Source: Acidimicrobiia bacterium
GTDB taxonomy: Bacteria > Actinomycetota > Acidimicrobiia > Acidimicrobiales > Bin134
Reading direction: 5' to 3'
Assembly: GCA_022827405.1 (NCBI GenBank)
Contig: JAJDTA010000109.1
Location: forward strand, 1-33,398
Length of the DNA: 33,398 bases
The notes under the pieces were generated by a model. It was given only the letters and a program-made list of their open reading frames with translations, was not told the origin of the DNA and did not search any database. Positions 4,998 to 29,378 of the stretch are shown here, one piece after another. The position numbers and the translations under genes are program-made. Position 1 is the first letter of the stretch, and each line of letters starts with the position of its first letter.

Positions 4998-5755
4998 TCA
5001 GACGGCGGTGTAGCCCCCGTCCACGTACAACAGGTGCCCGTGGACGAAGTCTGACGCCGACGAAGCCAAGAAAACAGCCGAGCCGGCAATATCGTCGGGC
5101 TGCCCGACCCGCCCGGCGGGAACCCGGGGAAGGAATGCCTCCAAGAAGCCCGGATCGTCGAGCAGGTACGCGTTCATCTCGGTTCGAACCGCGGTGGGCG
5201 CGATGGCATTGACGTTGACCCCGTGGGGGCCCACTCCAAAGCCAACGTCCGGGTCAGCTGCATGACCCCGCCCTTGGATGCGCAATAAGCGGCGAACCCG
5301 GGAAAGCCGACTTCGCTGAACGTCGAGGCGAGATTGATGATTTTGCCCGCACCCGCTTCGACGAAGCGATGGCCCGCCGCCTGGCAGCAGAAGAACAGGG
5401 CCTTCAGGTTGGCATCGATAGTCGTGTCCCAGTCCTCCTCGGACACATCGAGCGCGGGCGCCGTCAATTGCACACCGGCCGAGTTAACCAGAATGTCGAA
5501 TCCGCCGAGCTCGTCAGCCAACTCCCCGAACACTCCGGGAATGCCGCCGACATCGGTCAAGTCGGCGGCTTTGACCCCGGCTGACTGGCCGAGGGCCTGC
5601 ACCTCTGTCGCGGTCTCGTCGAGCAGCTCAACCGTGCGGCCGATCACGGCAACATCGGCACCGGCCCCAGCCAATGCGATGGCGATGGCCCGACCTATCC
5701 CCCTCCCACCGCCGGTGACGATCGCCTTTTTGCCAGACAATGCCCTCTCGGTCAT
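4998..5755 (-). pseudogene. SDR-family oxidoreductase split by a one-base frameshift
   Basis: Two overlapping reading frames together give one ordinary short-chain dehydrogenase of about 251 residues. The N-terminal frame has TGGGRGIG at 14-21, NSAG near 91-94, N116, S144 and the YCASK motif (Y157, K161), so the NAD(P) site and the whole catalytic tetrad are present. It runs into LALEWAP and then loses homology. The other frame resumes exactly there with HGVNVNAIAPT and ends in VDGGYTAV, a normal SDR C-terminus. Restoring one base in the five-G run at 5225-5229 (C run on the coding strand) joins the frames as WAPHGVNVN. Either the gene is freshly broken or a homopolymer base was lost in sequencing or assembly. 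It is the last gene of the minus-strand operon, 52 bp after the molybdenum large subunit, and ends 8 bp from the convergent gene. Confidence 0.85.
5225..5229. other. Frameshift site (homopolymer one base short)
   Basis: A run of five G on the plus strand followed by CCC. A sixth G would restore a continuous SDR reading frame. No slippery heptamer of the usual programmed type was recognised here. Confidence 0.75.
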
Positions 5756-5785
5756 GTGTGCCTCGATTCTCTTGAGAGTTTCTGC

Positions 5786-5820
5786 CCCACTCCTGTGGGA
5801 CGCCCAGTCAGCGGGCGTCC
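5786..5820 (-). terminator. Adjacent hairpins at the end of the molybdenum hydroxylase operon core
   Basis: A perfect 8 bp stem pairs GGACGCCC (5798-5805) with GGGCGTCC (5813-5820) around a 7-base loop holding the stop codon of the large-subunit gene. A second 5 bp stem, CCCAC (5786-5790) with GTGGG (5795-5799), follows in the direction of transcription and shares two bases with the first, so the two may be alternative. There is no T-run. It could be a weak terminator, an attenuator or an RNA-processing site lowering expression of the following SDR. Confidence 0.4.
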
Positions 5821-8117
5821 TGAACCGCCCGGTAAACCGTTTCCGGCCCCAGCGGTGTTTCGGTGATCTTGGCTCCCAGTGGAATCAGCGCGTCGGCCAC
5901 TGCATTGGCGATGGCCGCCGGTGCACCCACCGCACCGCCTTCACCGGCCCCCTTCATTCCATCGGGATTGAGGGGGGTGGGGACGATCATGTGTTCGACG
6001 ACCATCTCGGGCATGTTCCCGATGGCGGGAACCAAGTAGTCCATGAAGTTCGCGTTCTGGGGTTGGCCGTCGTCGCTGTAGGCGATTTCCTCGAGTAGAG
6101 CGCCTCCAATGCCCAAGGCGACGCCTCCCTGCACCTGTCCGTCCACCAAGAGGGGGTTAATCAAGGACCCGGAGTCATTGACCACGACATGGCGAAGCAG
6201 GTTGACCACACCGGTGTCGACGTCGACCTCGACGGTGGCCACGTGGCAACCGTAAGAGAAGGTGTTGGTCGGAGGGTGATAGATATCGGTTGCGTCCAGG
6301 GTGTAGTTGTCGACTCCCTCGGGCAATGGCTGACCAGGAGCCACCCTTCCGGCCACCTGGGCCAACGAGACGCTGCTGGCCGGCGATCCCTTGACCCGGA
6401 CCTCTCCCTCGACCAGCTCAAGATCTTGTGGCGAAGCCTCCAGCATCTCCGCAGCGATTTGGATGGCTTGCTCTTTGATTGAGCCGGCGGCATGGCGCAC
6501 CGCGGTGCCGCCAATGGGCGCGCTGCGGCTGGCATAGGTGCCCACGCCGCTGGCCACCAGATCGGTATCTCCGTGTACGACCACGATGTCATCGAAGTCA
6601 ACGCCGAGCTCATCGGCGGTGATCTGGGCCAGCACGGTGTCGTGGCCTTGTCCGCTGCTGCACGCCCCCGTGAACACAATGACCTGGCCGGATGGTTCGA
6701 CTCGGACGCGCCCACTTTCGTAGGGGCCGAGACTGGTCTCCTCGACAAAAAAGCCGATGCCAATACCCAGATAGCGACCCTCAGCCCGGGCGCTATCCTG
6801 CTCGCTGCGGAAATCGTCCCACTCAGCCGCGGCCATAGCCCGGCGCAGGCACTCCTGATAGTCGCCGGAGTCATAGATGATCTCGCCGGCCAACACGTTC
6901 CCGATGCCACGGTGGAGCGGGAACACATCGTTGGAGAACATGTTGCGCATCCGCACTTCGCCGGGATCGATGCCAACGGCTTCAGCCACCAGGTCGATGA
7001 TGCGCTCCATGGTGAACGCCGCCTGAACGTGGCCGACGCCTCGGAAAGGGTTGAGAGGGGTGGTGTTGGTCATGACCACGGTCGACACCAGCTGTTGATG
7101 CTCGATCACGTAGGGACCCGACAGCATGGAGACCCCGATGAAGGGCTCGACCAGGGTCAGTCGCTGGAGATAAGCGCCGGTGTTGGTGACCGCGTGGTCG
7201 TGGATGGCCAGGATTTTGCCGTCATCGTCGTAGCCGACCTCCACGTCGTGGTACTGCTCGCGGCCGTGGGTGGACGCCAGGAAATGCTCGTAACGGTCCT
7301 CCACCCACTTGATCGGGCGACCCACCTGCTCGGCCGCCAATCCGAGGACTATTTCCTCGGGATAGGGCTGGAGCTTCACGCCGAAGGCGCCGCCCACATC
7401 GGGAGCGATCACCCGGACGGCGTTCTCGGGCAGCCCCAAATAGCCGACCAAGGTGGCCTTGAGGCTGTGGGGAACCTGGGTGGACGACCACATGGTCAGG
7501 CCGCGGCGCGGCTCGTCCCATTGGACGATCACTCCCCTGGTCTCCAGCGGCGTACCGGCATAACGCTGGGTGACGAACCTCTCGGTGAGCGTGTGGGGCG
7601 CGGCCGCCAGCGCCGAAGGCGCGTCGCCCACCGAGTACTCCAATACATCGACCACGTTCGATTCGAAGTGGACCAGCGGTGCCCCGGGGGCCAGCGCTGC
7701 TTCGGCAGTCGACACCGCGGGAAGCGGTTCATAGTCGACGTCCACCAGTCCCGCGATGTCCTCGGCAATGTAACGGTCGCCCTCGACTATCACCAGTGCG
7801 ACCGGCTCACCCACGAAGCGGACTTTTTCGGCGGCCAGGATGGGCTGGTTGAACGGCTTGGTGGTCTCCTCGGCGTCGATACAGGGCAGCGGGGGCAGGC
7901 CGGCCGGGAGATCATCAGCCGTTAGGACGCACACCACTCGAGGATCGGCCATTGCCGTGCTGGTATCTATCCCCCGGATCAACGCATGGGCGTGGGGGCT
8001 GCGCACGAACACCGCGTGGACCATGCCGTGCAGCTTGATGTCGGACAGATACTGACCATTCCCCTGGAGCAGGCGGGGATCTTCTTTTCGGCGAATGCTC
8101 GCTCCGAACAAGCTCAT
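5808..8117 (-). CDS. Molybdopterin-binding large subunit of a CoxL/xanthine dehydrogenase-family hydroxylase
   Basis: A 769-residue catalytic subunit of a three-subunit molybdenum hydroxylase encoded with its partners. It shows SIRRKEDPRLLQGNGQY at the N-terminus, VGGAFGVK as pterin loop, GACSSGQGHDT, and KGAGEGG with the catalytic glutamate at about E726. The active-site loop reads NPFRGVGH, different from the PYRAPGR of the other large subunit at 1798-4092 and from the CO dehydrogenase motif AYXCSFR, so the two probably have different substrates. The ATG at 8117 has GGGGAGG six bases upstream and overlaps the small-subunit stop as ATGA; the longer open frame up to 8315 lies inside the small-subunit gene. 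Likely role: hydroxylation of a nitrogen heterocycle or aldehyde, as in nicotine, ketone or uracil dehydrogenases. The substrate cannot be read from the sequence. Confidence 0.92.
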   Translation of the reverse strand: MSLFGASIRRKEDPRLLQGNGQYLSDIKLHGMVHAVFVRSPHAHALIRGIDTSTAMADPRVVCVLTADDLPAGLPPLPCIDAEETTKPFNQPILAAEKVRFVGEPVALVIVEGDRYIAEDIAGLVDVDYEPLPAVSTAEAALAPGAPLVHFESNVVDVLEYSVGDAPSALAAAPHTLTERFVTQRYAGTPLETRGVIVQWDEPRRGLTMWSSTQVPHSLKATLVGYLGLPENAVRVIAPDVGGAFGVKLQPYPEEIVLGLAAEQVGRPIKWVEDRYEHFLASTHGREQYHDVEVGYDDDGKILAIHDHAVTNTGAYLQRLTLVEPFIGVSMLSGPYVIEHQQLVSTVVMTNTTPLNPFRGVGHVQAAFTMERIIDLVAEAVGIDPGEVRMRNMFSNDVFPLHRGIGNVLAGEIIYDSGDYQECLRRAMAAAEWDDFRSEQDSARAEGRYLGIGIGFFVEETSLGPYESGRVRVEPSGQVIVFTGACSSGQGHDTVLAQITADELGVDFDDIVVVHGDTDLVASGVGTYASRSAPIGGTAVRHAAGSIKEQAIQIAAEMLEASPQDLELVEGEVRVKGSPASSVSLAQVAGRVAPGQPLPEGVDNYTLDATDIYHPPTNTFSYGCHVATVEVDVDTGVVNLLRHVVVNDSGSLINPLLVDGQVQGGVALGIGGALLEEIAYSDDGQPQNANFMDYLVPAIGNMPEMVVEHMIVPTPLNPDGMKGAGEGGAVGAPAAIANAVADALIPLGAKITETPLGPETVYRAVQDAR

Positions 8118-8593
8118 GCCCCACCTCCCCGCAGGCTGACTGCTTCCTCTACTGCTTCTACGATCTTGACGTAGCCCGTACACCGGCAGAGGTTGCCGCC
8201 CAGGCCTTCGATGATCTCCTCTCGAGTTGGGTTGGGGTTTTCGTCGAGCATCTCGGCGATGGTCAGCACGAATCCGGGAGTGCAGAAACCGCATTGCATA
8301 CCGTGTTTGGCCCAAAACGCCTGCTCGATGGGACCGAGTTCGTCGCCTTCAGTGAGGCCTTCGAGCGTGGTGACCTCGCTGCCGTCGGCTTGCACAGTGA
8401 GCAGCAGGCACGCTCGGGCGGTCTCGCCATCCACCATCACGGTGCATGCACCGCACACGCCGTGCTCGCAGGCCAGGTGGGTTGCGGTGAGGTCCAGCCG
8501 CTCTCGCAGAAAGTCGGCCAAGGTCAGACGGGCCGGCACCGAATCCGACCTCTCGACGCCATTTACTCGGATAGTGACAGCGTGATCACTCAT
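8114..8593 (-). CDS. [2Fe-2S] small subunit of the molybdenum hydroxylase
   Basis: A 159-residue electron-transfer subunit carrying two [2Fe-2S] clusters. The plant-ferredoxin-type cluster is bound by C42, C47, C50 (CEHGVCGAC) and C62. The second, in the helical domain, is bound by C101 and C104 (CGFCTPG) and C136 and C138 (CRCTGY). Length and spacing are standard for CoxS/CutS/NdhS subunits. Both ends overlap neighbours as ATGA (FAD subunit before, large subunit after), so the M-S-L order is translationally coupled. GGAG lies eight bases before the ATG. The subunit would pass electrons from Mo-pterin to FAD. Confidence 0.95.
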   Translation of the reverse strand: MSDHAVTIRVNGVERSDSVPARLTLADFLRERLDLTATHLACEHGVCGACTVMVDGETARACLLLTVQADGSEVTTLEGLTEGDELGPIEQAFWAKHGMQCGFCTPGFVLTIAEMLDENPNPTREEIIEGLGGNLCRCTGYVKIVEAVEEAVSLRGGGA

Positions 8594-9441
8594 GCAGCGC
8601 GCTCCAAAGCTTGGGTGAGTGCCCGCCGGCTGGTCACCGTCGCGAGGTGCAGACGGTAGTCACTCGAGGCCTGTACGTCGCTGCCGGGGCTGAGGCCCTC
8701 GGGCGCCAGCGCGGCGGCCTCGGTCGGGCTGGCACCATTGAGGACGGCGGCCTCCACGGCGTGGGCCCGCATGGGACGGTCCCCGGCACCGATCAGCGCC
8801 AGGTGGGCGTCCACGACGGTGCCGTCGCCATCCAATTGAACCTGGCAGAGCGCGCCGCACAATGCGTAGTCGCCGGGTCGCCGGGCGACTTCCACCACCG
8901 ACCATCCGGTCCGAGGGCCGGATGCGGGAAGTTCGACGGCCGTCAATACTTCTCCGTCAGCAATCGAAGTGCTCAAGAACCCTTGGAATAGATCTTCGGC
9001 CTCAATGGCCCGGTCGCCAGCCGGGCCGGTGACATGTACCCGGCCTCCGAGGGCCAAGACCACCGCCGGTAACTCCCCTGCCGGGTCGGCGTGGGCCACA
9101 CTTCCACCAATCGTCCCCCGCGACCGGATTTGCGGATGCCCCACATGGCGCAGTGACTCAACCAGGAGAGGGCACCGCTCGGCCACCAGGGGGTCTCGCT
9201 CGGCCCGGCGTTGCCGTGTCATCGCCCCGATGACCAGGCGATCGCCTTCGTCGGTGATGTGGTCAAGCCCGTCCACCCGGGCCAAGTCCACCAAAAGCGA
9301 AGGCCCAGCCAAGCGAAAGGCCAGTAGCGGAATCAGGCTTTGGCCCCCAGCCAGTACCTTGGCCTCTGAATCGCTCCCCAAGGCCTTGACTGCGTCGTCC
9401 ACCGAAATCGGCGCCACGTAGTCGAAATCAGGCGGCTTCAT
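8590..9441 (-). CDS. FAD-binding middle subunit of the molybdenum hydroxylase
   Basis: A 283-residue CoxM/CutM-type flavoprotein. The FAD-pyrophosphate loops AGGQSL (31-36) and TIGG (110-113, followed by SVAHADPAGELP) are both present, and the C-terminal CO-dehydrogenase flavoprotein domain is full length. The ATG at 9441 is preceded by AGGGAGGT; the in-frame extension to 9507 lies within the Old Yellow Enzyme gene and is unlikely. Its ATG shares one base with the stop of that gene. It would take electrons from the [2Fe-2S] subunit and pass them to NAD, oxygen or a quinone. Confidence 0.93.
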   Translation of the reverse strand: MKPPDFDYVAPISVDDAVKALGSDSEAKVLAGGQSLIPLLAFRLAGPSLLVDLARVDGLDHITDEGDRLVIGAMTRQRRAERDPLVAERCPLLVESLRHVGHPQIRSRGTIGGSVAHADPAGELPAVVLALGGRVHVTGPAGDRAIEAEDLFQGFLSTSIADGEVLTAVELPASGPRTGWSVVEVARRPGDYALCGALCQVQLDGDGTVVDAHLALIGAGDRPMRAHAVEAAVLNGASPTEAAALAPEGLSPGSDVQASSDYRLHLATVTSRRALTQALERAA

Positions 9442-10631
9442 CAGACCTCCCTGCGGATTCGTGCCCAGGCATGCTTCAAGAGATCTACGTTGGACTCCCG
9501 CCAGCACTTCAGAGCCACCGACCCTTCGTGCATCAAACAGATGTTGCAGGAGACGCAGTCCACCATGCCGGTTCGACCTGCTTCGATCTGGCGAACCAGA
9601 TCGGGCTCGCGAATGAACGGACGGGCCAGCGAGACGAAATCGGCCGACCCGTCTTCGATCACCTCGTTCATCAACTCGATGGTGCGAACGCCGCCGACCA
9701 GGATCGTCTTACCCCTCGCCGTCGCCTTATGGCGGCGAGCCTCCTCCCGGTAGTACGCCTCCTTCACCGGAGCGGCCAGCACACGATGAAGGAGCTTGTC
9801 CTGCAAGGCCCGCTTCCTGCTCACGCCCGCGTATCGGGCCGCGCTCTCCGCCTTGGGCGACATGAGGCCGGCAGAGATCTCGATGGCATCGACTCCGGCA
9901 TTGTCCATCATCGTGACCGTGGCTCGGCCTTCCTCAACCGTCAGCCCATCGGGTACGTAGTCCCAAAGCCCGATCTTGTTGGTGATCGGAAAGTCGTCGC
10001 CCACCGCGGCCCGCATGGCCTTGTAGGTCTCGAGTAGAAGGCGTTGGCGGTTCTCAAGCGATCCGCCCCACTCGTCCTCCCGGCGGTTGGTTGCCGGTGA
10101 CAGGAACTCGGACAAGAGGTAGCCATGGCCCGCATGCACATGGACACCGTCGAAGCCGGCTTCCCTCACCCGCCTCGCCGCGTTGCCAAAACCCTCGATC
10201 GCCTCCCAGATCTCGTCGGAGGTGGCCGCGGCCAGGGGCAGGCGGTGGAACTGCGGGTTCTCCACCACCGAGGGGGCCAGCGGCTCGATCGATTCGTCTC
10301 GGCTCTGGCTTCCCGCGTGGTTGAGCTGGGCAAAAATCCTGCCGCCTTCGGCGTGAATGGCTTGCGTCAGCTTCTGCATCGGTGCAATGACCTCGTCGCG
10401 ATCCAACGCGGTCATGCCTCTGATGTAGTTGCCCCGGGGATGGACCGAGCAATGTCCGGTGAAGATGAGTCCTACACCATTGCGGGCCAGTCGGGTGTGG
10501 AGGTCCAGGTATTGCTGGGTGATGATGCCGCGGTCATCGGCCATGGTCTCGGAGGTGGATGATCGGATAATCCGATTGCGGGTCTCCACCCCCGCGAGAT
10601 TCCCTGGCCTCAGTACTGCCGGCGTCGTCAT
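9441..10631 (-). CDS. Old Yellow Enzyme-family NADH:flavin oxidoreductase
   Basis: A 396-residue single TIM-barrel FMN enzyme. IFAQLNHAG (99-107) gives the flavin-contacting Gln, and VHVHAGHGYLL gives the paired active-site residues H166 and H169 that hold an enone or nitro group. ILVGGVRT and FVSLARPFIREPDL are the FMN phosphate-binding strands. The C-terminus has a cysteine cluster C-x2-C-x2-C-x10-C (CVSCNICL, then C) like that of 2,4-dienoyl-CoA reductase relatives, but without the second, FAD/NADPH domain; it may bind an iron-sulfur cluster. A GAGGGAG site precedes the ATG. It sits 3 bp after the alpha/beta hydrolase and overlaps the FAD-subunit gene by one base, so it belongs to the hydroxylase operon. 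Likely role: NAD(P)H reduction of an activated C=C bond in a pathway intermediate. A close paralogue is at 18795-19991. Confidence 0.9.
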   Translation of the reverse strand: MTTPAVLRPGNLAGVETRNRIIRSSTSETMADDRGIITQQYLDLHTRLARNGVGLIFTGHCSVHPRGNYIRGMTALDRDEVIAPMQKLTQAIHAEGGRIFAQLNHAGSQSRDESIEPLAPSVVENPQFHRLPLAAATSDEIWEAIEGFGNAARRVREAGFDGVHVHAGHGYLLSEFLSPATNRREDEWGGSLENRQRLLLETYKAMRAAVGDDFPITNKIGLWDYVPDGLTVEEGRATVTMMDNAGVDAIEISAGLMSPKAESAARYAGVSRKRALQDKLLHRVLAAPVKEAYYREEARRHKATARGKTILVGGVRTIELMNEVIEDGSADFVSLARPFIREPDLVRQIEAGRTGMVDCVSCNICLMHEGSVALKCWRESNVDLLKHAWARIRREV

Positions 10632-10634
10632 GGG

Positions 10635-11708
10635 TCACTCCCTCAGATTCCGGGCCAAATAGTCGGCCATGCGGGGGCGGACCACTGGGCCCATGTTGTG
10701 ACAGCAGTGGTCGCCATCAAGCTCGAAGTCGATCTGAGCCAGGGGGTTGTGGGCCAATCCCGCCTGTAACAACTCGGTCTGGTGGGGAGGGAAGATCGGG
10801 TCGTGATATCCCTGGACCAGCAGGGTGGGGCAGGTTAGATCGCCCATGGTCTCCGATAGGTCGAACGTCTCTTGCAGATAGGCGCGGCCCTCATCCAGGT
10901 CCTCGAAGCCCGATACGTAAACGAATCCTCCCCGAGTGTGGGGTGGCATGCCGTCGAAGTCGGACATGTCGGAAAACCCGCCCCACGCCACGCAGGCCTT
11001 GAGCCGCTTGTCGAGGGCCGCTGACTGCATGGCGTAGTAGCCGCCCAGGCTGCGGCCGAGCACTCCGATGCGGTCGCTGTCCACATCGGGCCGGGCGCTG
11101 ATCGTGTCGAGGACCGCAGAGGTGTAGCGATGAAAATCGGAGCAGAGCTTCACGTCGAAGTACATCTCGCCTTGGCCGGGACCGTCGAACGCGAAGGTGG
11201 CCAACCCGCGGCGGTGGCAGAGCGCCTCGAAGTGGTAGCTCTCCTCCTTGGTCGACTCTAGGCCCCCGATGAGGACCGCGCACGGGTGAGGTCCGGGCCC
11301 GGCGGGGAGCCGGAGGTAGCCGGGGATGATCGTCGATTCGAATGCGATTTCCACCCGCTCGGCCGGAGCCACTAGATGAGGCGCAGCCCGCTTGTACAAC
11401 TCGACCTTCTTGTGCTGGCCGTGCTCGCGGCGGTCGGGTTCGTGGAACCACATGAGCTGCCCGTAGTGCCACGACAACGACGAATGCCACAGCCACTCGC
11501 CGGCGCTGACCCGATCACCAGCCTCCAACGCGGCCATACCTAGGGCTTCGTAGCGCTCGGCAGTATCGGCCCAAAACGGCAGCCATTCGGCCAGGTCGTC
11601 CAGCGCCCTGGCCGCCTCGAAGTCCGGGTAGGGAATGCCGTCGGCGAGCATCCGGCCCGGGTTCAGGATCGCCTCGACCTTTTGGGGCACCAAGTCGTCA
11701 GCGCTCAT
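10635..11708 (-). CDS. Alpha/beta hydrolase resembling 2,6-dihydroxypseudooxynicotine hydrolase
   Basis: A 357-residue serine hydrolase with a helical N-terminal cap region (about 1-115, rich in Trp and Tyr) ahead of the alpha/beta core. The nucleophile elbow GRSLGGYYA puts the serine at S220; acid D303 lies in GYHDPIFPP and the base is H334 or H337 in DGDHCCHN. The long N-terminal domain, the total length and the order of motifs recall the C-C bond hydrolase of the pAO1 nicotine pathway and the related FrsA/DUF1100 esterases. That enzyme cleaves a carbon-carbon bond next to a dihydroxypyridine ring, which would suit the surrounding molybdenum hydroxylase genes. The subfamily is judged from length and layout, so an ordinary esterase remains possible. 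The ATG at 11708 has only a weak AGG upstream; 94 bp separate it from the preceding gene. Confidence 0.8.
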   Translation of the reverse strand: MSADDLVPQKVEAILNPGRMLADGIPYPDFEAARALDDLAEWLPFWADTAERYEALGMAALEAGDRVSAGEWLWHSSLSWHYGQLMWFHEPDRREHGQHKKVELYKRAAPHLVAPAERVEIAFESTIIPGYLRLPAGPGPHPCAVLIGGLESTKEESYHFEALCHRRGLATFAFDGPGQGEMYFDVKLCSDFHRYTSAVLDTISARPDVDSDRIGVLGRSLGGYYAMQSAALDKRLKACVAWGGFSDMSDFDGMPPHTRGGFVYVSGFEDLDEGRAYLQETFDLSETMGDLTCPTLLVQGYHDPIFPPHQTELLQAGLAHNPLAQIDFELDGDHCCHNMGPVVRPRMADYLARNLRE

Positions 11709-11802
11709 AGTTGGCCTGCATTCCCCAGTGCGGACGACTGGTCATCGACGTTGAGCACTCTTATCCCCCTTCTTGGACACTAAAGGCTGCTGGGAAAATT
11801 CG

Positions 11803-12300
11803 CTACCGACTGTCATGTTGCTGGCTGGCCTGTTGGTGACTGGCCACCGTGGCTTGGACCGCTTCGACGATACCCTGATAGCCGGTGCAACGACAGATGT
11901 TGCCGCTGAGCGCCTCCCGTATCCCCGCCTCCGTCATTTCGGCCAGCTCATCGAGCATCGAGTCGATCGCCATGAGAAAGCCAGGGGTGCAGAACCCGCA
12001 TTGCAGTGCGTGAGCGGCGCTGAAGGCTTCTTGGAGCGGGTGCAGATCATCACCGTTCGCCAGTCCCTCCACGGTCTTGATGGCGCTGCCGTCAACCTGC
12101 ACCGCGAACAACAGACATGACCGCACCCCTTGTCCGTCGAGTTGGACGGTGCAGGCCCCGCAGACGCCGTGCTCGCAGCCCACATGGGTCCCGGTCAGGT
12201 GCAACTCGTGACGGAGGAAGTCCGATAGCAGCAGTCGGGGCGAGACTGTCCGGTCATAGGCCACGCCGTTGACTTCAACCGCGATGTGGTGGATCGCCAT
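11803..12300 (-). CDS. [2Fe-2S] small subunit of a molybdenum hydroxylase, without adjacent partners
   Basis: A 165-residue CoxS-type protein with the full set of eight cluster cysteines at the same positions as in the protein at 8114-8593: C42, C47, C50, C62, C101, C104, C136, C138. That ungapped match from the first residue supports the ATG at 12300. An in-frame GTG at 12330 would add ten residues and lies closer to the preceding stop. No FAD or large subunit adjoins it. It may serve the orphan large subunit at 1798-4092, or replace the other small subunit in an alternative complex. It follows the DUF1989 gene by 42 bp in the long minus-strand operon. The glutamine- and histidine-rich tail is not conserved between the two copies. 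Confidence 0.9.
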   Translation of the reverse strand: MAIHHIAVEVNGVAYDRTVSPRLLLSDFLRHELHLTGTHVGCEHGVCGACTVQLDGQGVRSCLLFAVQVDGSAIKTVEGLANGDDLHPLQEAFSAAHALQCGFCTPGFLMAIDSMLDELAEMTEAGIREALSGNICRCTGYQGIVEAVQATVASHQQASQQHDSR

Positions 12301-12342
12301 CGGAGTTCTCGTTGAGGAAGGACCGCTCACCAGCAGATTTCG

Positions 12343-13290
12343 CTAATCCTCCGCCACCTGATCCAGGTGCTTCGGACCCTTCATGTAGTTGACGATCCAC
12401 CAGCTGAAGAACACGTACCGAAGCACGTCGGCGTCGGTCTCGCCGAATTCTCCTGTCGCCACAAGCTCATCGAGCATGGTCTGGTGCTCGGGGCTCAAGT
12501 TGACGGGGACGTCGGTGAGAACAATGGGGTAGTTGACGTAATTCGGGACGTACGAAGGGTCTTTGTACAGCTCTCGATCAGCCTTGATGGGTTGGGCGGC
12601 CAAGTCCTCGGTGGTGAGCTGAGATCGGTATTTGACCAACTCCGGCCGGCCTTCGAACTGGGCGAGGTCTTCGGGCAGGCCTTCATAGATGGCAAGCCGC
12701 AGTGGCTTCAGCTCGAAACTGCTGGTGGCGAAGGTATCCGCGCCACACACGTTGGGCACGGCTAGCAAATCGATCAAGGCGATAATCTCGATGTAGTCCC
12801 CGTGCTTGGCCACGTTTTCGGCGATGTATGGATGTCCTGCTTGATCGACACCGGTGTGCATGAAGAAATTGAACGAATCATGCACGTCGTCGCTGGTCAA
12901 CCCGTATTCTCGCTGGGCTTCGGCTTGAATGTCGTGACAGTTCGTATGGGGATCCACCCCAAATTGGTATTCGTACAGCAAGCCGCTACATCGGGGATAC
13001 AGCACATCATTGGTTCCGACGGTGTCGGTGATGATCGCCGCTATAGGCCGGTCTCGCGGCGGCGCCGACCAGAGGAAATCGCCCGTGGTTGGGTGCATTC
13101 CATGCATGTGCCTGGTCCGACCGGTGTGGAAGCACTCCTTGTAATCGTGGAGGTTGAAACAGTTGAAGTCGGCGCATTGACCGGCGACTCCGATCTGTTC
13201 GAGTCGCATGACCTGTCCGGCCAGGAGCTCGACGGCCTTGCCGGTGGCCGGTTCCATGATGTGCTCATACAACAGCCTTCGCTCGGTCAT
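12343..13290 (-). CDS. DUF1989 family protein (urea-carboxylase-associated / carboxyguanidine deiminase-like)
   Basis: A 315-residue protein recognised by the order GQCADFNCFN (37-46), a TTGDFLWS-type strand, DTVGTNDVLYPRCS, a CHDIQ helix, NFFMHTGVD and the Cys-containing NVCGADTF near the end of the core. These fit DUF1989, long called urea carboxylase-associated protein and shown in guanidine-degrading systems to form carboxyguanidine deiminase (CgdA/CgdB). No urea or guanidine carboxylase is in the window, so another C-N hydrolysis is more likely here. It is also longer than usual, with about 90 extra C-terminal residues. Its ATG overlaps the stop of the small upstream gene as ATGA. Beside an amidase and a ring-opening amidohydrolase, a role in handling carbamoyl or amidine nitrogen is plausible but unproven. 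Confidence 0.75.
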   Translation of the reverse strand: MTERRLLYEHIMEPATGKAVELLAGQVMRLEQIGVAGQCADFNCFNLHDYKECFHTGRTRHMHGMHPTTGDFLWSAPPRDRPIAAIITDTVGTNDVLYPRCSGLLYEYQFGVDPHTNCHDIQAEAQREYGLTSDDVHDSFNFFMHTGVDQAGHPYIAENVAKHGDYIEIIALIDLLAVPNVCGADTFATSSFELKPLRLAIYEGLPEDLAQFEGRPELVKYRSQLTTEDLAAQPIKADRELYKDPSYVPNYVNYPIVLTDVPVNLSPEHQTMLDELVATGEFGETDADVLRYVFFSWWIVNYMKGPKHLDQVAED

Positions 13291-13448
13291 GAGGAGTGTT
13301 CCTTGTGGAATTCCCGCAACGCCCGCAGAAAGAGGTCTTCCCGGTCCCCGGAACTCGTTTCGTCAACGGAATCGTCAACCAACTCGAGTTGCTGCTGGTT
13401 CAAACGGACGACTACTTCTCGGAAATATCCATCTTCTTCATCGCTCAT
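13287..13448 (-). CDS. Small protein, putative ribbon-helix-helix (53 residues)
   Basis: This short gene encodes 53 residues starting MSDEEDGYFREVVVRL. The pattern is an acidic tail, a short strand of alternating hydrophobic and polar residues (REVVVRLN, 10-17), a helix rich in Leu, Val and acidic residues (18-29), a polar turn (TSSGDRE) and a second helix (DLFLRALREFHKEH). That order fits the ribbon-helix-helix DNA-binding fold of the Arc/MetJ/CopG type. GGAGG lies eight bases before the ATG, and the stop overlaps the DUF1989 start as ATGA, so it is very likely translated and coupled. It could be an autoregulator of the operon or a small partner of the DUF1989 protein. The fold is inferred from pattern alone. 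Confidence 0.7.
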   Translation of the reverse strand: MSDEEDGYFREVVVRLNQQQLELVDDSVDETSSGDREDLFLRALREFHKEHSS

Positions 13449-13510
13449 GATTTGGCCTCCGCTCGTTCGAGTTTCACTGGTCTAAGGCAATTTACCAGAC
13501 AACGTCTCGC

Positions 13511-13939
13511 TCAATTCGGGGGAGGATCCACCACGGCGATGGCGTCGATCTCGATCATGAGGTCGGGGACGACGAGGGCACTGATCTCAATCGTCGAACT
13601 GGCTGGAGGGTCATTGGGAAAATACCGGGCCCGCACCTCCTGCACCGCGGGAAGGTAAGCCATATCGGTGAGGAACACGGTCAACCGCACGACGTCTTCC
13701 AACGTTGCTCCGCCCTCGTTGAGCACTCGCTGGAGGTTCTCCAGCGTGGCCTCGGTCTGGGCCGCCGGGTCTCCCACACCGATAACGGCGCCATCCGGAT
13801 CGAGGGCAACTTGTCCAGCAGCAAAGACCATCCGGCCGGATTCGCACACAATTCCTTGTGAGAATGGCTGGGGATGCTCGAAACCCGCTGACGACGGATC
13901 CCATACCCCCGCAGGGCGCAGTACGTGTTTGTCGACCAT
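13511..13939 (-). CDS. RidA/YjgF-family protein lacking the catalytic arginine
   Basis: A 142-residue Rid-family protein, a fold that forms trimers. FAAGQVALDPDG (39-50), ATLENLQRVLNEGGATLEDVV in two pieces near 64-84, VFLTDM and IEIDAIAV at the end are family marks. In true RidA imine deaminases an arginine precedes the SxVEV-type strand (R105 in E. coli). Here the matching segment is PASSTIEI with Ser114 in its place, while the late glutamate (E130) is kept. It is therefore unlikely to be a 2-aminoacrylate deaminase and more like Rid subgroups with other or unknown hydrolase roles, some of which sit in catabolic operons. GGAGG precedes the ATG by ten bases. It lies between the amidase (42 bp upstream) and the small protein gene (62 bp downstream). 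Confidence 0.88.
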   Translation of the reverse strand: MVDKHVLRPAGVWDPSSAGFEHPQPFSQGIVCESGRMVFAAGQVALDPDGAVIGVGDPAAQTEATLENLQRVLNEGGATLEDVVRLTVFLTDMAYLPAVQEVRARYFPNDPPASSTIEISALVVPDLMIEIDAIAVVDPPPN

Positions 13940-13981
13940 CGAACTCGGACCTCCCTACGGGGAATGCCTGGCGGGAAAACC

Positions 13982-15202
13982 CTATCCAAACACCATCCCG
14001 GTCGCCCGGGCGTCGTCACCGAGCATGGTCATGAGATCGAGAAGACGAAGCTCATCACCGGGGGCAGTCAACAAGCCGACTCCCACCGACCGGGGATCGC
14101 CGTATCGGCGGACTGAAAACACCGCCTGAGGTACCCCCGCAAGGCTGCTGGGAGCAGCCAGCCGGAAGCACTCGCCTCTGAACTGGGCCAACTGCCGGTC
14201 GTCCCAGTCCCGCATCGGGCCATGCCGGAGCATCACCGGGAGCACCACCGCAGTTCCCGGCTCGACCGCGACACGGAGAGATCGGGTATACACCAGCCTC
14301 TCCGCCCGGTCGTCCTGTTGGGCGCGGTAAGGATCCTGGGAAAGGCGCTCGCACCGCTCGAGCCGCATCCTCACGTCTTCGGCCAACGACGAACCGTGCT
14401 CGGCAACCCAAGGCCCATGGTTCGACCAAATTTCCCGTCCTTGCAACCTGGCAAACAAATCACCGACAACGGCACTGGTGAACTCCCCGAACTCGATCTC
14501 CTCTAATGGACCGCCCACTACATCGGCCGCGGCCTCAGCCACGGCCCTTCCGATCCGGGCCGTCTCGGCATCAGCCTCATCAAACACATCGGCGGCGAAC
14601 CTAACCTTGGGAGGCGCCGTGGTGTGGTCAGCACCCGGTGCGAGCACCTTGAGCACATCGGCGATGATCGAGGCCCGAAGCCCGAAAACACCGACCACGT
14701 CGAACGAGTGCGCCAGCGGGATGACCCCATCGGATTCGATCACCCCGTGCGAGGGCCGAATGCTGTGCAGCCCGCAAGCTGCCGCGGGCACCCGAATCGA
14801 GCCGGCCGTATCGGTGCCCAATCCGATGTCGGCCAGTTCGGCGGCCACCGCCGCGGCCGAGCCCGAGGATGAGCCCCCGCAGAAGAGCCGATCGTCGAGC
14901 GCATTGCGCGGCGGCGCACCCTCCCCCACATTGCCGATCAGCGAGTAGGCCAGCTGATCCAGCTTGGTCAGGCCAACAAGATCGGCGCCGGCGTCCAGCA
15001 TGCGGGTCAAGATCGGTGACGTCGCCGACGGGGCGGCATGGGTCGACCGCCATCGCTCATGGCCGAAAGAGCTTTGATGGCCCCGAAGGCTGATCAGGTC
15101 CTTGGCCACGAAGGTGCGTCCTTGCAAGCTTCCTTGCCCCGAGCCGCCCACGGCCACGCTGTTGGGCACGAAAGCCCCGATGTCAGTCAGGTCATCAGTC
15201 AT
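13982..15202 (-). CDS. Amidase-signature hydrolase
   Basis: A 406-residue cytoplasmic amidase of the amidase signature family. The Ser-cisSer-Lys triad is present: K34 in VAKDLISLRG, S111 in CGGSSSGSA and nucleophile S135 in GTDTAGSIRVPA. It is shorter than typical 450-500-residue members, near the size of malonamidase E2. The ATG at 15202 was chosen because the family similarity starts just after it and upstream sequence belongs to the divergent promoter region; a longer open frame to 15319 overlaps the divergent gene. It is the first gene of the minus-strand operon and lies back to back with the ring-opening amidohydrolase. In cyanurate breakdown (AtzE) and in barbiturate breakdown (ureidomalonase step) an amide hydrolase follows ring opening, so it may act on that product. 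Specificity is inferred. Confidence 0.88.
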   Translation of the reverse strand: MTDDLTDIGAFVPNSVAVGGSGQGSLQGRTFVAKDLISLRGHQSSFGHERWRSTHAAPSATSPILTRMLDAGADLVGLTKLDQLAYSLIGNVGEGAPPRNALDDRLFCGGSSSGSAAAVAAELADIGLGTDTAGSIRVPAAACGLHSIRPSHGVIESDGVIPLAHSFDVVGVFGLRASIIADVLKVLAPGADHTTAPPKVRFAADVFDEADAETARIGRAVAEAAADVVGGPLEEIEFGEFTSAVVGDLFARLQGREIWSNHGPWVAEHGSSLAEDVRMRLERCERLSQDPYRAQQDDRAERLVYTRSLRVAVEPGTAVVLPVMLRHGPMRDWDDRQLAQFRGECFRLAAPSSLAGVPQAVFSVRRYGDPRSVGVGLLTAPGDELRLLDLMTMLGDDARATGMVFG

Positions 15203-15283
15203 GATCCTTGGCCACCATGCTGCCGCAGTCTGCCAAGATTTGGGAGTATTCACCCACAGTGGAAATAAGGGAGAGACGGATTT
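15203..15283. promoter_or_regulatory. Divergent promoter region between amidase operon and ring-opening amidohydrolase
   Basis: These 81 bp separate two back-to-back transcription units and must carry at least one promoter for each. An inverted repeat CTTGGC (15207-15212) and GCCAAG (15232-15237), with 19 bases between, could be an operator for a dimeric regulator. AGGGAG near 15268 is the ribosome site of the plus-strand gene. No clear -35/-10 pair is visible. The repeat is short and could be chance. Confidence 0.4.
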
Positions 15284-16381
15284 ATGCCTTTTGAAGTGCG
15301 CAAGATCCCATTCGAGCATGTCACGGATACCTCAGGGCTTGAACAGGCCATCGCAGAGGGGGCCTTCCGGGGCGACCAGATCGTCGGGGTGGTCGGCAAG
15401 GTCGAGGGCAATGGCGGTGTTAACGACTTCTCCCGCATCTTGGCCGATCGGGTGCTTCGCGACTTCCTTGTCGAACAGTGCGGGCACACCCGGGAGTCGG
15501 CCCTCCAAGTGCCCATCGCCTGGTCCGGCGGAACCGACGGGGTGATCTCGCCCCACATGACGGTCTTTGCCAAAGTCGACGGTCCCGCCGAGCCAGCGGA
15601 CGAGAAGCGCCTCACCGTCGGTCAGGCCGTTTCGGTGCCCATCTTGCCCGAGGAGATCGGCCGCCTCGCCATGCTCGACAAGGTGGCCGACGCGGTCAAC
15701 CTGGCGGTGGCCGACGCCGGCATTGACGATCCGGCCGACGTCCACTATGTACAGACCAAGACGCCTTTGCTGACCGCCGAGCGCATCGCCGACGCCCATG
15801 CCCGGGGTAAAACGGTGGCATTGGAGGACACCATGGAATCGATGGCGGTTTCCAACGCCACGTCGGCTTTGGGCATAGCCACCGCGCTGGGCGAGATCGA
15901 GCGGCCCCGTGAAAACCAGATCGCCAAAGACCTCTCAGTCTACTCGTCGGTTGCGTCGTGCTCATCGGGGGTCGAGCAGACCCAGGCCCAGGTCGTGGTG
16001 GTTGGCAACCGCCTCGGCGTCGGCGGGCGCTACCGATCGGGCCACTCGATCATGGAGGACAACCTCGACTTCCCCGGCATCTACCGTGCGATCCGCTCAG
16101 CCGGCCTCGACCTGCCCGAGCGGCCGATCCCCGAAGACCTCGACGACCGGGTGGTGAATTGCTTCATCAAGTGCGAGATACATCCCAGCGGCCGACTGCG
16201 GGGCCGGCGGCAAGTGTCGCAAAACGATTCGGACATCCACCACACCCACCACACCAAGGGGGCCGTAGGGGGTGTGGCCGCCGCCGCACTGGGAGATCCT
16301 GCCGTGTTCGTGTCGGTGGCCGGGCTTCAATCCGGCCCCGCCGGAGGCGGATCAGTGGCCGCCATCGTGGATTTGGGCTGA
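15284..16381 (+). CDS. Ring-opening amidohydrolase (cyanuric acid hydrolase/barbiturase family)
   Basis: A 365-residue member of the small Toblerone-fold family containing cyanuric acid hydrolase (AtzD/TrzD) and barbiturase; the length matches both. Three homologous units are visible. Unit 1 carries the serine loop WSGGTDGVISPH (S81), unit 2 begins with VQTKTPLLT (K159) and carries the YSSVASCSSGVE serine cluster (S227-S228), and unit 3 ends in HHTHHTKGAVGG and VSVAGLQSGPAGGGSV. These are the Ser-Lys pairs that open the cyclic imide. Barbiturase turns barbiturate into ureidomalonate; cyanuric acid hydrolase makes carboxybiuret. The surrounding molybdenum hydroxylases favour barbiturate or a related heterocycle over cyanurate, but residues deciding this cannot be judged by eye. 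AGGGAG precedes the ATG. The next gene starts 1 bp after the stop. Confidence 0.9.
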   Translation: MPFEVRKIPFEHVTDTSGLEQAIAEGAFRGDQIVGVVGKVEGNGGVNDFSRILADRVLRDFLVEQCGHTRESALQVPIAWSGGTDGVISPHMTVFAKVDGPAEPADEKRLTVGQAVSVPILPEEIGRLAMLDKVADAVNLAVADAGIDDPADVHYVQTKTPLLTAERIADAHARGKTVALEDTMESMAVSNATSALGIATALGEIERPRENQIAKDLSVYSSVASCSSGVEQTQAQVVVVGNRLGVGGRYRSGHSIMEDNLDFPGIYRAIRSAGLDLPERPIPEDLDDRVVNCFIKCEIHPSGRLRGRRQVSQNDSDIHHTHHTKGAVGGVAAAALGDPAVFVSVAGLQSGPAGGGSVAAIVDLG

Positions 16382-16382
16382 C

Positions 16383-16946
16383 ATGGCCCGCCTACCCGGC
16401 CTGCCCCCCGGCGACCTCAACGTTGAGCAGCGGGTTCTGTATGACTCCATCGCAGGAGGGGACCGAGCCAAAGACGCATCCTTCCCTCTCACGGACAGCC
16501 GCGGAGCGTTGATCGGACCCTTCAATGCCCTGCTCTACAACCCTGGAGTTGGGGATGCAGTGCAACAGCTCGGCGCCGCGTTGAGGTTCCATGGTGGGCT
16601 CAGCGGATCAGTGCGGGAGCTGGCCATCTTGATGACCGCAACCCATTACGACTGCGAGTTCGAGCGATGGGCCCACGAACCCATCGCAATTCGCGTCGGC
16701 TTGACCATTGAGCAGGTAGCTGCCTTGCGTGCGGGAAAGCGACCTGCTTTGGAGACTGCCGAACTCAATGCCTCGTACGATGCCTGCCAGTCGATACTGC
16801 GTGAAAAGGCCATGAGCGACGACATCTATGCCCGAACAGTTGAGGCACTGGGACAAGACGGCGTCGTCGAACTGCTAACGGTTGTCGGCTACTACGGTCT
16901 CTTGGCCCAGCTCATGAACGCCTTTAAGGTTGAGCCGCCAGGATGA
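16383..16946 (+). CDS. Carboxymuconolactone decarboxylase-like (AhpD-like fold) protein
   Basis: A 187-residue all-helical protein. The core RELAILMTATHYDCEFERWAHE (about 79-100, in two overlapping pieces) matches the CMD-domain helix of 4-carboxymuconolactone decarboxylase and AhpD, with the Glu, Cys and His of that helix. There is a single Cys (C93), not the CxxC of AhpD peroxidase partners, so a disulfide-type redox role is less likely. The ATG at 16383 directly follows the stop of the ring-opening amidohydrolase; the long upstream in-frame extension lies inside that gene. Similar 180-190-residue CMD proteins are common beside aromatic degradation genes, where their reaction is often unknown. 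Here it may act on the ring-opened product, for example as a decarboxylase. It converges with the CocE/NonD gene, 3 bp away. Confidence 0.82.
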   Translation: MARLPGLPPGDLNVEQRVLYDSIAGGDRAKDASFPLTDSRGALIGPFNALLYNPGVGDAVQQLGAALRFHGGLSGSVRELAILMTATHYDCEFERWAHEPIAIRVGLTIEQVAALRAGKRPALETAELNASYDACQSILREKAMSDDIYARTVEALGQDGVVELLTVVGYYGLLAQLMNAFKVEPPG

Positions 16947-16949
16947 CCC

Positions 16950-18701
16950 CTACCCGCTTTGGTCGTTGGGGATGCGCGGGACCAGGACCCAATTCGGATG
17001 GTCGGGGCCGAAGTGCACCGTCACCTGATTGTCGAACACCTCCGGTGGCCGATTCCTGACATCGTCGTGCAGGAACGGGCCGCAGCCCCGTAGCTCGTTC
17101 TTGAAGTTCGACAGCCGGAGCCCCGTGGTGTCGCCGTCCCATTCGTAGTCGCGCCCTCGAATCGAAAAGCCGATGCGATAGCCCGGCGGTATCACGATCG
17201 AAGTGGGCCAGATCTCGATATCCAGCTCGTAGATCTCCCCCGGCGTCAGGGGCTGTTCCTCGTCGTGGGTGTGGTACGGCCTCCACTCTTCGGAAAGGGA
17301 TTCATCCAGCTTGCGATGCGACGCTCGCAACCAGCCCTGGGCGATGGGCGTGTGGGGATCGATGGCGCCCATGAATGTGACCTCTTCACCATCGGGGTCG
17401 AAGACCCGGAACACCAAGAACAAATCGGCATCGGTGGTGGACGAGGAGATGTGGAGTTTGGCGGCCAACGGACCGGTTACCTCGGTCTCCTCCTCCACTG
17501 GAGGCATGAAGAAGGTGAGCCCGTCGCCCATGGCGGCATAGGTGATCGTTGTCTCGGCGTTCACGGGATCATGCACCAGCGTCTGGTCCGATGGATTGAG
17601 ATGCAGCTTGGTCCAGTCGGTCCGCGGGATGGGCCAGTCGGATTCGGCCCGCTCGACGAAACGGTCGACATGGCGAACCAGCAGCTGCACCCTCGGCTGA
17701 TCGTCCCAGGCGGCGTCATTACCCTGGAGATACTTGGCGAAGAAGCGCTTTTGGAGTTGGACGCCGTAGTCGGTGTAGTACTCGGTCCAGTGCTCTATGC
17801 CGTGGCACTCTAGGAACTTCTCGGGGGAAGCGGCCCGGATGTAGGCCTCGATGTTGCCGCGGGGATGCAGTCCCTGTCCGCCCCAGTTGGACGCCGACAA
17901 GAACGGCACGGTCACCTTCGACCAATCGGGGGACCGGTCCTTGTGGTACTGGTCGTCGAGGGGATGGGAGGCGATCTCGTTGCCGAAGTCGCAACGATTG
18001 GCCCGAAGCTTCTCCTCGCTCAGCGTGTCGGGGCCGGCCACGAGCTCGCCGGTCACGATGCTCCTCGCCCCGTTCTCGCCGACGCCGTGCTGCACGGTCT
18101 TGATCTGCATGTCGTACCAGTTGTCCCAGAAGGTCGACAGGATGCCGCCGTGGTAGGTCATGTCGCGGTACCAATCGGCGGCTCCCTCCCAGGGGATCAT
18201 CGCCGTTAGGTGGGGTGGCTGGAGCGAGGCGACATGCCAGGCGTTGATGGCGTAGTAAGAGATCCCCGAAATGCCGACCTTGCCGTTGGACCAGGGCTGG
18301 ACACCGGACCACTCGATGCACTCGTAGAAGTCCCGGGTCTCTCGGGGTGAGAAGTGGTCGATGTAGCCGGGGCTACGGCCCGCCCCCCGGGAGTCCACCC
18401 GAACGCACGCGTACCCCTCGGGGACCCACTTCTCGGGATCGCACACCTCCCAGTTCTGATACTTGTTGGTGGATCCGGCGGCCACGTCGGGATGCTCTTC
18501 CACCATGCGGTCCCAAGCGCTGGGATAGCCCTCTTGGAAGGCCAGTCCTTTGGCGTAGGGGCCGTAGCTCAAGATGACCGGGTACTGGCCGTCGTCGTCC
18601 GGGCGGTACACGTCGGCCCGCAATTGCAGACCGTCGTCCATCTCGACGATGACATCCCAGTCGATCCTCATGCCGTCTCGAACTTCGCTGTTGGTGCTCA
18701 T
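16950..18701 (-). CDS. CocE/NonD-family hydrolase (X-Pro dipeptidyl-peptidase S15-like)
   Basis: A 583-residue serine hydrolase. The N-terminal alpha/beta hydrolase domain (about 10-330) has the oxyanion segment SYGPYAKG, RVDSRGAGRSPG (101-112) and nucleophile elbow GISYYAI with S148, matching the GVSYLG elbow of cocaine esterase; the histidine base is probably in CHGIEHW. A beta-sandwich of the PepX C-terminal (galactose-binding-like) type occupies about 350-580, with the usual IEIWPTSIVIPPGYRI strands. Members hydrolyse acyl esters, beta-lactam side-chain amides or prolyl peptides; no signal peptide is visible, so it is cytoplasmic. AGGGGGA precedes the ATG. It is a single gene divergent from the Old Yellow Enzyme at 18795, and the substrate is unknown. 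Confidence 0.9.
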   Translation of the reverse strand: MSTNSEVRDGMRIDWDVIVEMDDGLQLRADVYRPDDDGQYPVILSYGPYAKGLAFQEGYPSAWDRMVEEHPDVAAGSTNKYQNWEVCDPEKWVPEGYACVRVDSRGAGRSPGYIDHFSPRETRDFYECIEWSGVQPWSNGKVGISGISYYAINAWHVASLQPPHLTAMIPWEGAADWYRDMTYHGGILSTFWDNWYDMQIKTVQHGVGENGARSIVTGELVAGPDTLSEEKLRANRCDFGNEIASHPLDDQYHKDRSPDWSKVTVPFLSASNWGGQGLHPRGNIEAYIRAASPEKFLECHGIEHWTEYYTDYGVQLQKRFFAKYLQGNDAAWDDQPRVQLLVRHVDRFVERAESDWPIPRTDWTKLHLNPSDQTLVHDPVNAETTITYAAMGDGLTFFMPPVEEETEVTGPLAAKLHISSSTTDADLFLVFRVFDPDGEEVTFMGAIDPHTPIAQGWLRASHRKLDESLSEEWRPYHTHDEEQPLTPGEIYELDIEIWPTSIVIPPGYRIGFSIRGRDYEWDGDTTGLRLSNFKNELRGCGPFLHDDVRNRPPEVFDNQVTVHFGPDHPNWVLVPRIPNDQSG

Positions 18702-29367: not shown

Positions 29368-29378
29368 ATGGAGCCAAC

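Follow-up and report, generated by a model that had tools for sequence, protein, structure and literature searches.

A candidate catabolic island of Acidimicrobiia combining a barbiturase-like enzyme with relatives of nicotine-pathway enzymes

Genes at the locus and extent of the island

A 33,398 nt stretch of DNA (the window), which is the entire contig G000:C140 of an Acidimicrobiia metagenome bin (3.77 Mb, 237 contigs), carries a gene block that we analyzed as a candidate catabolic island for nitrogen-containing ring compounds. Open reading frame (ORF) calling with codon statistics delineated ~30 genes (Table 1), mostly assigned by Pfam to catabolic enzymes or transporters. Between positions 4998 and 16946, a minus-strand run encodes an amidase, a Rid-family protein, a 53-aa ORF, a DUF1989 protein, a 2Fe-2S subunit (FeS2), an alpha/beta hydrolase (ABH), an Old Yellow Enzyme (OYE1), the FAD, 2Fe-2S (FeS1) and large (MoL) subunits of a molybdenum (Mo) hydroxylase, and a short-chain dehydrogenase (SDR), with intergenic gaps of -4 to 94 bp; 81 bp beyond the start of the amidase gene, a divergent plus-strand pair encodes the barbiturase-like ring-opening amidohydrolase BAR and a CMD-family protein. 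All genes named here by the original prediction, made from the sequence alone, were confirmed at these places.

When the window is compared with its congeners G006 and G003, third codon positions take most substitutions in every gene of the run, for instance 7, 3 and 116 at codon positions 1, 2 and 3 of BAR (vs G006) and 3, 1 and 14 in the 53-aa ORF; therefore, these are real genes under coding constraint. The 53-aa protein is conserved in sequence but resembles no Pfam family at E ≤ 0.1, which leaves its earlier description as RHH-like without backing. BAR has the top amino-acid identity in the block (98% to G006, 99% to G003), and the amidase (76 and 79%) and CMD (77 and 83%) are the most diverged genes of the run. 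The SDR gene was located where it had been proposed, but the window copy is split across two frames over 758 bp, whereas the corresponding 756 bp are open in all four readable genomes (G003, G005, G006 and G017); sequencing error and recent loss are indistinguishable as its cause. Likewise, the run is uninterrupted in the window but not in all congeners, as extra ORFs lie between Rid and amidase in G006 (one of 426 aa, L022 15775-17055, ATPase-like by eye) and G017 (two small ones, L035 1743-2191). The bin has an estimated contamination of 5.34%; the block also occurs in the one-contig congener G006, and therefore it is no binning artefact.

In G006, every window gene is present in the same order, with SDR2 in pieces only. 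In G003, the block was read between the ABC and ADH genes and is collinear there, as it is in G005, G008 and G017 as far as the contigs or read stretches extend. To the left of the window-like part, G006 carries two more Mo hydroxylase large subunits, 2Fe-2S and FAD subunits, a carbon-nitrogen hydrolase, two cupins, two BMP-type permeases, a BMP binding protein, a double-Rid protein and a further Mo subunit, of which the second permease and the Mo subunits are assigned by sequence likeness only; to the right lie HyuA/HyuB-like hydantoinase subunits. The flanks are 64.1 kb apart in G006 and 12.9 kb apart in the island-free congener G019. Among the island-free congeners tried (G007, G012, G014 and G019), the right flank was found in all and a long left match in G019 only, which has one second left-flank match out of order; because the query for the right flank started at L073:9000, the island edge on this side is only bounded. 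No tRNA was found in the island or its flanks in six stretches. The run first described is the middle of a larger catabolic island, which varies between congeners and reaches up to 64 kb in G006.

Table 1. Features of the window, with positions in nucleotides and the evidence for each
Feature	Position	Strand	Evidence or remark
ATPase of BMP-family (PnrA/RbsA-like) ABC importer	255..1778	+	best NCBIfam model B6 importer, 443 bits, cut-off 670
MoL2, Mo hydroxylase large subunit, KdhL-like (nicotine ketone dehydrogenase)	1801..4092	+	7dqx 725 bits, tree
ISO, isochorismatase-family cysteine hydrolase	4181..4990	+	profile matches; co-occurs with T321 BAR
SDR, frame-broken	4998..5755	-	pieces searched separately; intact frame in four relatives
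MoL, Mo hydroxylase large subunit	5808..8117	-	Pfam; 21-row tree
FeS1, 2Fe-2S subunit of MoL complex	8114..8593	-	4-bp overlap with each neighbour
FAD subunit of Mo hydroxylase	8590..9441	-	40% to pAO1 kdhM, 42% to ndhM
OYE1, Old Yellow Enzyme family	9441..10631	-	matches N-terminal part of FadH-type enzymes
ABH, alpha/beta hydrolase, 2,6-dihydroxypseudooxynicotine hydrolase-like	10635..11708	-	2jbw 302 bits; triad; tree
FeS2, second 2Fe-2S subunit, KdhS-like, probable MoL2 partner (inferred pairing)	11803..12300	-	60% to pAO1 kdhS
DUF1989 protein	12343..13290	-	three cysteines aligned with TMAO demethylase zinc ligands
53-aa protein, conserved	13287..13448	-	no Pfam match
Rid-family protein	13511..13939	-	below TIGR00004 and RutC cut-offs
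Amidase-signature enzyme	13982..15202	-	Lys-Ser-Ser motifs found
BAR, barbiturase-like ring-opening amidohydrolase, T321 subclade	15284..16381	+	Amido_AtzD_TrzD 425.8 bits
CMD-family protein adjoining BAR	16383..16946	+	Pfam
CocE/NonD (X-Pro dipeptidyl-peptidase S15) hydrolase	16950..18701	-	Pfam; conserved in block
OYE2, second Old Yellow Enzyme	18795..19991	+	Pfam
CYC, cyclase family (PF04199), distant relative of pAO1 PKC	20102..21055	+	33% to PKC
EamA-family transporter	21070..21966	+	Pfam
FMO, flavin hydroxylase related to 2,6-dihydroxypyridine 3-hydroxylase	22010..23221	-	2vou; NF005566
M24 (creatinase/prolidase) family	23339..24574	+	profile matches
Amidohydrolase-2 family	24601..25608	-	Pfam
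Cyclic-amidohydrolase (allantoinase/dihydropyrimidinase-like)	25672..27006	-	best allantoinase 320.7 bits, cut-off 357.85

The ring opener and the relatives of nicotine-pathway enzymes

The best solved match of BAR is barbiturase (PDB 5hwe, 434 bits), with cyanuric acid hydrolases at 220-289 bits. This supports the earlier view of an island for nitrogen heterocycles in which a ring opener of the barbiturase family accompanies Mo hydroxylases. In a six-sequence alignment, the Lys-Ser dyad residues K39, K159, K296, S81, S227/S228 and S344 are invariant. The specificity sites of cyanuric acid hydrolase AtzD are Arg195, Thr321, Arg325, Gly345 and Gly346, and the signature of barbiturase Bar (group VI) is Asn195, His321, Lys325, Val345 and Ser/Ala346 (PMC3758960); Cho et al. 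(PMC4051656) name glutamine, not asparagine, for barbiturases at presumably the first of these sites. The window BAR has Asn, Thr, Lys, Val and Ala, so that four of five residues (Asn191/Lys325/Val345/Ala346) are barbiturase-type and one of five (Thr321) fits the cyanuric acid hydrolase signature. With Thr for His at 321, the group VI signature is incomplete, and because only four of its five residues are kept we designate BAR as barbiturase-like, outside group VI proper. Site 321 is Thr in the window BAR and in all seven close relatives read, whereas the loci of species genomes have Thr in 6 and His in 74 of 80 cases (the best 80 of at least 539 confirmed relatives). In a 92-row tree, the 11 rows with Thr321 (hereafter T321), among them at least one identical pair, have a single origin with a support of 100/100, and their join to three proteobacterial rows is flagged as a possible long-branch effect. 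BAR, whose activity is a prediction, is by its sequence nearest to barbiturase, not to cyanuric acid hydrolase, and belongs to this single-origin subclade.

Based on similarity and trees, MoL2, FeS2 and ABH are specific relatives of KdhL, KdhS and 2,6-dihydroxypseudooxynicotine (DHPON) hydrolase, enzymes of the nicotine pathway on plasmid pAO1. Among solved proteins, ABH matches DHPON hydrolase (2jbw) with 302 bits and the next with 55; it is 43% identical to the pAO1 enzyme, forms a clade with it and a protein of G064 in a 20-row tree (support 100/99), and keeps the catalytic triad S217, D300 and H329. The Glu248 named in a review (PMC6122326) could not be placed by its numbering, as the pAO1 record has Trp and ABH has Phe at 248. 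MoL2 matches ketone dehydrogenase (7dqx) with 725 bits and the next solved protein with 413, is 45% identical to pAO1 kdhL, and groups with it in a 21-row tree (support 100/99). In KdhL, Phe269, Arg383 and Glu748 are Mo-site residues, Trp551 is a substrate residue, and Glu345 pairs in a salt bridge with the 6-hydroxypseudooxynicotine amine tail (PMC8305194); MoL2 keeps F269, R383, W551 and E748, with the Trp551 equivalent being Tyr in MoL and Ile in NdhL. By direct comparison with plasmid pAO1, FeS2 is 60% identical to kdhS and the FAD subunit 40% to kdhM.

Two further genes resemble the pyridine part of the same pathway. FMO matches 2,6-dihydroxypyridine hydroxylase (2vou) with 241 bits and the next solved protein with 72, is 37% identical to pAO1 dhpH, and exceeds the cut-off of subfamily NF005566 (426 vs 333 bits). 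CYC is 33% identical to pAO1 PKC (128 bits), its only solved match being 5ibz (225 bits). The His of the GTHxD motif has a role in PKC and kynurenine-formamidase-like cyclases; where PKC reads GTHID, CYC reads GTQWD, with Gln for the first motif His. As a control, 12 nicotine genes of pAO1 were searched in 105 partly overlapping stretches from loci with BAR, ABH or FMO relatives, unequal in length (80 kb for G006, most ~20 kb or less). The window, G003 and G006 match six genes and G064 five, and among the others eight match three, six match two, and 87 match one or none; at window-like length (30-39 kb), G072, G069, G117 and G076 match 3, 3, 2 and 1, respectively. At 1e-8, 6HLNO, NIT and NBOR had no match in the window or in 80 kb of G006, nor did SRPBCC, Dabb and the pAO1 cupin in the block.

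Regarding the other enzymes, carboxyguanidine deiminase and trimethylamine-N-oxide demethylase have DUF1989 domains, and three Cys of the latter are zinc ligands (PMC12560246 and PMC11271267). The window protein keeps all three aligned zinc-type Cys, and therefore a deiminase- or lyase-like step is possible. Its scores against the UAAP1 and UAAP2 models (57.2 and 47.5 bits) are below the curated cut-offs (284.7 and 205.95), and the reading as a urea/guanidine-carboxylase protein (UAAP, carboxyguanidine deiminase) was rejected. The Rut pyrimidine pathway was rejected as well, as ISO reaches 32.5 of the 377.95 bits required for the RutB equivalog and Rid 74.9 of 169.1 for RutC. The amidase is below every displayed NCBIfam cut-off; it has the Lys-Ser-Ser motifs of amidase-signature enzymes. 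Outside the genus, the row closest to MoL is the Mo subunit encoded beside the G069 barbiturase (98/97); the 21-row tree was drawn mostly from barbiturase loci, and this sisterhood is suggestive, not a survey. The roles of the OYE and CMD proteins are guesses. Two Old Yellow Enzymes of similar length, OYE1 and OYE2, occur in the block, and a second M24 creatinase/prolidase-like gene lies at 29364-30617, with DMSP lyase DddP as its best model (107 vs a 600-bit cut-off).

Occurrence of the block and of its parts

At E ≤ 1e-20, relatives of BAR occur in 6 of 22 genomes of the genus and in 14 of 148 relatives, and DUF1989 is found in the identical six congeners. ISO occurs in eight of the 148 (the six congeners, G076 and G117), and its carriers are exactly those of T321 BAR, G017 being read from a partial gene; the six other BAR-family carriers (G056, G063, G069, G072, G103 and G143) have a residue other than Thr at site 321 and no ISO match. 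Six of the eight carriers are congeneric, and therefore the co-occurrence counts as two lineages, not as eight independent events. Among the best 80 of at least 539 relatives, the named T321 carriers are Acidimicrobiia metagenome-assembled genomes (MAGs) and one MAG labelled only 'bacterium'; the bin names hint at a possible sponge origin. ISO was found in the genomes of the T321 loci L080 and L081 (75-76%) and L082 (44%, beside a BMP importer and ~2.3 Mb from BAR), and no match in that of L083; the L081 genome shares places with G076 and is probably the identical genome.

Other genes of the block have distributions of their own. Across genomes of the order, DUF1989 (1e-15) occurs in 29 of 298, with only 28-38% identity outside G000 and G006, and FMO (1e-40) in 22 of 298, of which 20 are outside the genus. 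Plasmid searches gave 83 records for DUF1989, none spanning 80% of the query and all below 60% identity, and BAR matches of 60-62% in Nonomuraea and Embleya records that are unannotated at the matched place. A cupin-cupin-nitrilase set stands beside Mo hydroxylases in G006 (L072 12087-13675, Pfam) and, by eye, in G117 (contig 28619-30330) and G064 (L062 15219-16685).

The association of Mo hydroxylases with barbiturases that had been proposed for the window recurs elsewhere, as relatives of the two window Mo subunits are encoded within 2-8 kb of barbiturase genes at other loci. For MoL2, one such relative is located 2.4 kb downstream of the L083 T321 barbiturase, separated from it by Rieske, 2Fe-2S and FAD genes. 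A second is in L129, from a Pseudolabrys MAG, at a distance of 8.3 kb from a barbiturase with His321, and both belong with MoL2 to a five-row clade (support 100/100); a MoL relative (L032; 98/97) lies 4.1 kb upstream of the G069 barbiturase. Downstream of its barbiturase, L083 (7171-16825) has a Rieske-like protein, a complete Mo hydroxylase, an amidohydrolase and more Rieske-like genes; it is possibly a simpler version of the pathway, the Rieske assignment being by eye. In two actinomycete barbiturase loci, L087 (9057-9992) and L106 (8988-9980), a gene that by eye is carbamate-kinase-like precedes the barbiturase, and no Mo-subunit match was found within ~10 kb.

A proposed route, its alternatives and known systems

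Based on these findings, we tentatively propose that the block may be a catabolic island for a nitrogen-heterocyclic ring in which all steps belong to one pathway, with the order of steps deduced from enzyme families. Molybdenum hydroxylases insert water-derived oxygen next to a ring nitrogen. Once the ring is doubly oxygenated, DHPON hydrolase splits off its acyl side chain (PMC6122326), and barbiturase opens the barbiturate ring (PMC3758960). The known chemistry of these three families combined would therefore give the order import, oxidation, side-chain removal, ring opening and amide hydrolysis. First, a nucleobase- or pyridine-like compound would be imported by the BMP-type ABC importer, and at least two Mo hydroxylases (MoL+FeS1+FAD and MoL2+FeS2) could oxidize the ring carbons next to N, yielding a cyclic imide or ureide of the barbiturate type. 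If the ring bears an acyl group, the second oxidation would produce a 1,3-dicarbonyl, from which ABH could cut the side chain as DHPON hydrolase does. Upon this, BAR would open the ring between N and C=O, and the amidase, cysteine hydrolase, Rid and DUF1989 proteins may free the nitrogen as ammonia.

A more specific form of this proposal, which we consider unlikely, is a pyrimidine equivalent of the pyridine pathway of nicotine breakdown, wherein a C5-substituted uracil (e.g., 5-formyl- or 5-acyluracil, with thymine-like compounds or C-nucleosides as the source) would be oxidized at C6 by the KdhL-type Mo hydroxylase to a 5-acylbarbiturate, relieved of its side chain by a retro-Claisen cut of ABH, and opened as barbiturate by the Thr321 BAR. 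If true, a single linear pyrimidine route would account jointly for MoL2, FeS2, ABH and BAR.

Several observations weigh against one pathway. The six congeners are one evolutionary instance, and ABH (E ≤ 1e-20) is absent from all five T321 genomes outside the genus (G076, G117, G309, G311 and G312); the two were found together in one genome within this genus only. The BAR contigs of G076 and G117, which carry BAR-CMD, the importer, another Mo subunit, a double Rid and ISO, have no ABH, OYE, DUF1989, amidase, FMO or CYC, and G064, which has ABH, CMD and several Mo subunits (some seemingly fragmented), has no BAR match at 1e-10, in a search that was without positive control and whose query found 14 of 148 elsewhere. 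FMO neighbourhoods in 10 of the 20 extra-generic genomes (12 stretches) contain no ABH, BAR or CYC match, and one has a Mo subunit. MoL2 itself has Gly at Glu345, the amine-tail residue of KdhL, and Trp551, kept in MoL2, is Phe in L083 and Tyr in L129. BAR also clears the NCBIfam CyanAcHdlAtzD cut-off (417.2 vs 360 bits). The absence of ABH from the five other T321 genomes lowers both the single-pathway proposal and its pyrimidine form, and raises the alternative that at least two independent pathways have piled up in a catabolic hot spot, with BAR serving a pyrimidine-type ring and the KdhL-like and DHPON hydrolase-like enzymes a pyridine-type ring. We take this alternative seriously, although it is itself doubtful. 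It accords with the separate modules outside the genus, where G076, G117 and G309 have BAR-CMD-importer-ISO and G064 has ABH-CMD-Mo hydroxylases, with the division of both strands into several transcription units, with the insertions between Rid and amidase in two of six genomes, and with the inter-flank stretch of 12.9 kb in G019 instead of 64 kb. However, the block is collinear in six BAR congeners as far as contigs read, BAR and DUF1989 are all-or-none across the 22 congeners, and MoL2 relatives lie near barbiturases in L083 and L129. The whole-block conservation on which the original prediction was to be judged thus holds for part: the block is a unit within one genus, in 6 of 22 congeners as far as read, but splits into modules outside it. 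A single pathway is plausible but unproven.

The remaining alternatives assign the block to one known route. BMP-family importers are known for nucleosides. An ordinary oxidative uracil/thymine route by Mo dehydrogenase, barbiturase and ureidomalonase-like amidase, with the other genes as unrelated passengers, would explain the adjacency of Mo hydroxylase, barbiturase-like enzyme and amidase and the BMP-family importer, but is improbable, as Thr replaces the prevailing His321 in the window and all seven close relatives read and as MoL2 and ABH are specific nicotine-pathway relatives. We consider it similarly improbable, or slightly more so, that the block is a nicotine-type pyridine pathway, with a cyclic imide derived from pyridine (2,6-dihydroxypyridine, the tautomer of glutaconimide) and not a pyrimidine as the ring that BAR opens. 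Six pAO1 relatives in one block and the altered specificity residue of BAR favor it, and the later fate of 2,3,6-trihydroxypyridine is called unclear in a review (PMC6122326); however, T321 BAR occurs without ABH in five of five genomes and without FMO on the contigs read, pAO1 6HLNO, NIT and NBOR are unmatched in the block, and CYC, the relative of the PKC-type cyclase proposed for pyridine ring opening in pAO1 (PMC6214936), is without the PKC motif His. A cyanuric-acid (s-triazine) pathway is very improbable, and the cyanuric-acid identity of BAR was rejected despite the one curated cut-off cleared, since of the five AtzD-type residues BAR has only Thr321, with Asn, Lys, Val and Ala barbiturase-type, solved cyanuric acid hydrolases score far below barbiturase, and the amidase and ISO are under the AtzE, allophanate hydrolase and BiuH cut-offs.

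Barbiturase has had limited study so far, according to Cho et al. (PMC4051656), and the open-access titles listed for barbiturase describe neither such a block nor partners of a non-classical barbiturase. Each enzyme is of a known kind, while the gene combination and the T321 subclade are apparently new, at least to us. The block supplies candidate partners open to testing, namely a distinct barbiturase subclade and its importer, a cysteine hydrolase, and a C-C hydrolase that matches a KdhL-type hydroxylase. If ABH and BAR share an intermediate, the side-chain-stripping chemistry of nicotine breakdown would serve pyrimidines too in uncultured Acidimicrobiia, and would indicate which side-chain-bearing heterocycles these bacteria eat.

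Compared with known systems, BAR shares the three Lys-Ser dyads and four of five signature residues with barbiturase of the AtzD/Bar 'Toblerone' family (group VI), which has His at 321 where the BAR subclade has Thr. The pAO1 pathway of Paenarthrobacter nicotinovorans has six counterparts in the block (kdhL, kdhM, kdhS, DHPON hydrolase, dhpH and PKC), and a kdhL gene apart from its small subunits is common to both, but the block adds the barbiturase, DUF1989, OYE and amidase. With the atzDGEHF cyanuric acid operon, it shares the ring-opening amidohydrolase family and an amidase-signature enzyme, but differs in specificity residues and amidase subfamily. With the oxidative uracil route (uracil dehydrogenase, barbiturase and ureidomalonase), it shares a Mo hydroxylase, a barbiturase-type enzyme and an amidase, but has in addition the C-C hydrolase, a second Mo hydroxylase, OYE and DUF1989. 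The Old Yellow Enzyme, DUF1989 and C-C hydrolase had been regarded as foreign to the known uracil route, which stands, and the C-C hydrolase and the seemingly lone 2Fe-2S subunit turned out to be relatives of the nicotine pyridine pathway. In conclusion, the occurrence of a barbiturase-like enzyme and nicotine-type enzymes in one block suggests a so far undescribed route for nitrogen-containing ring compounds.

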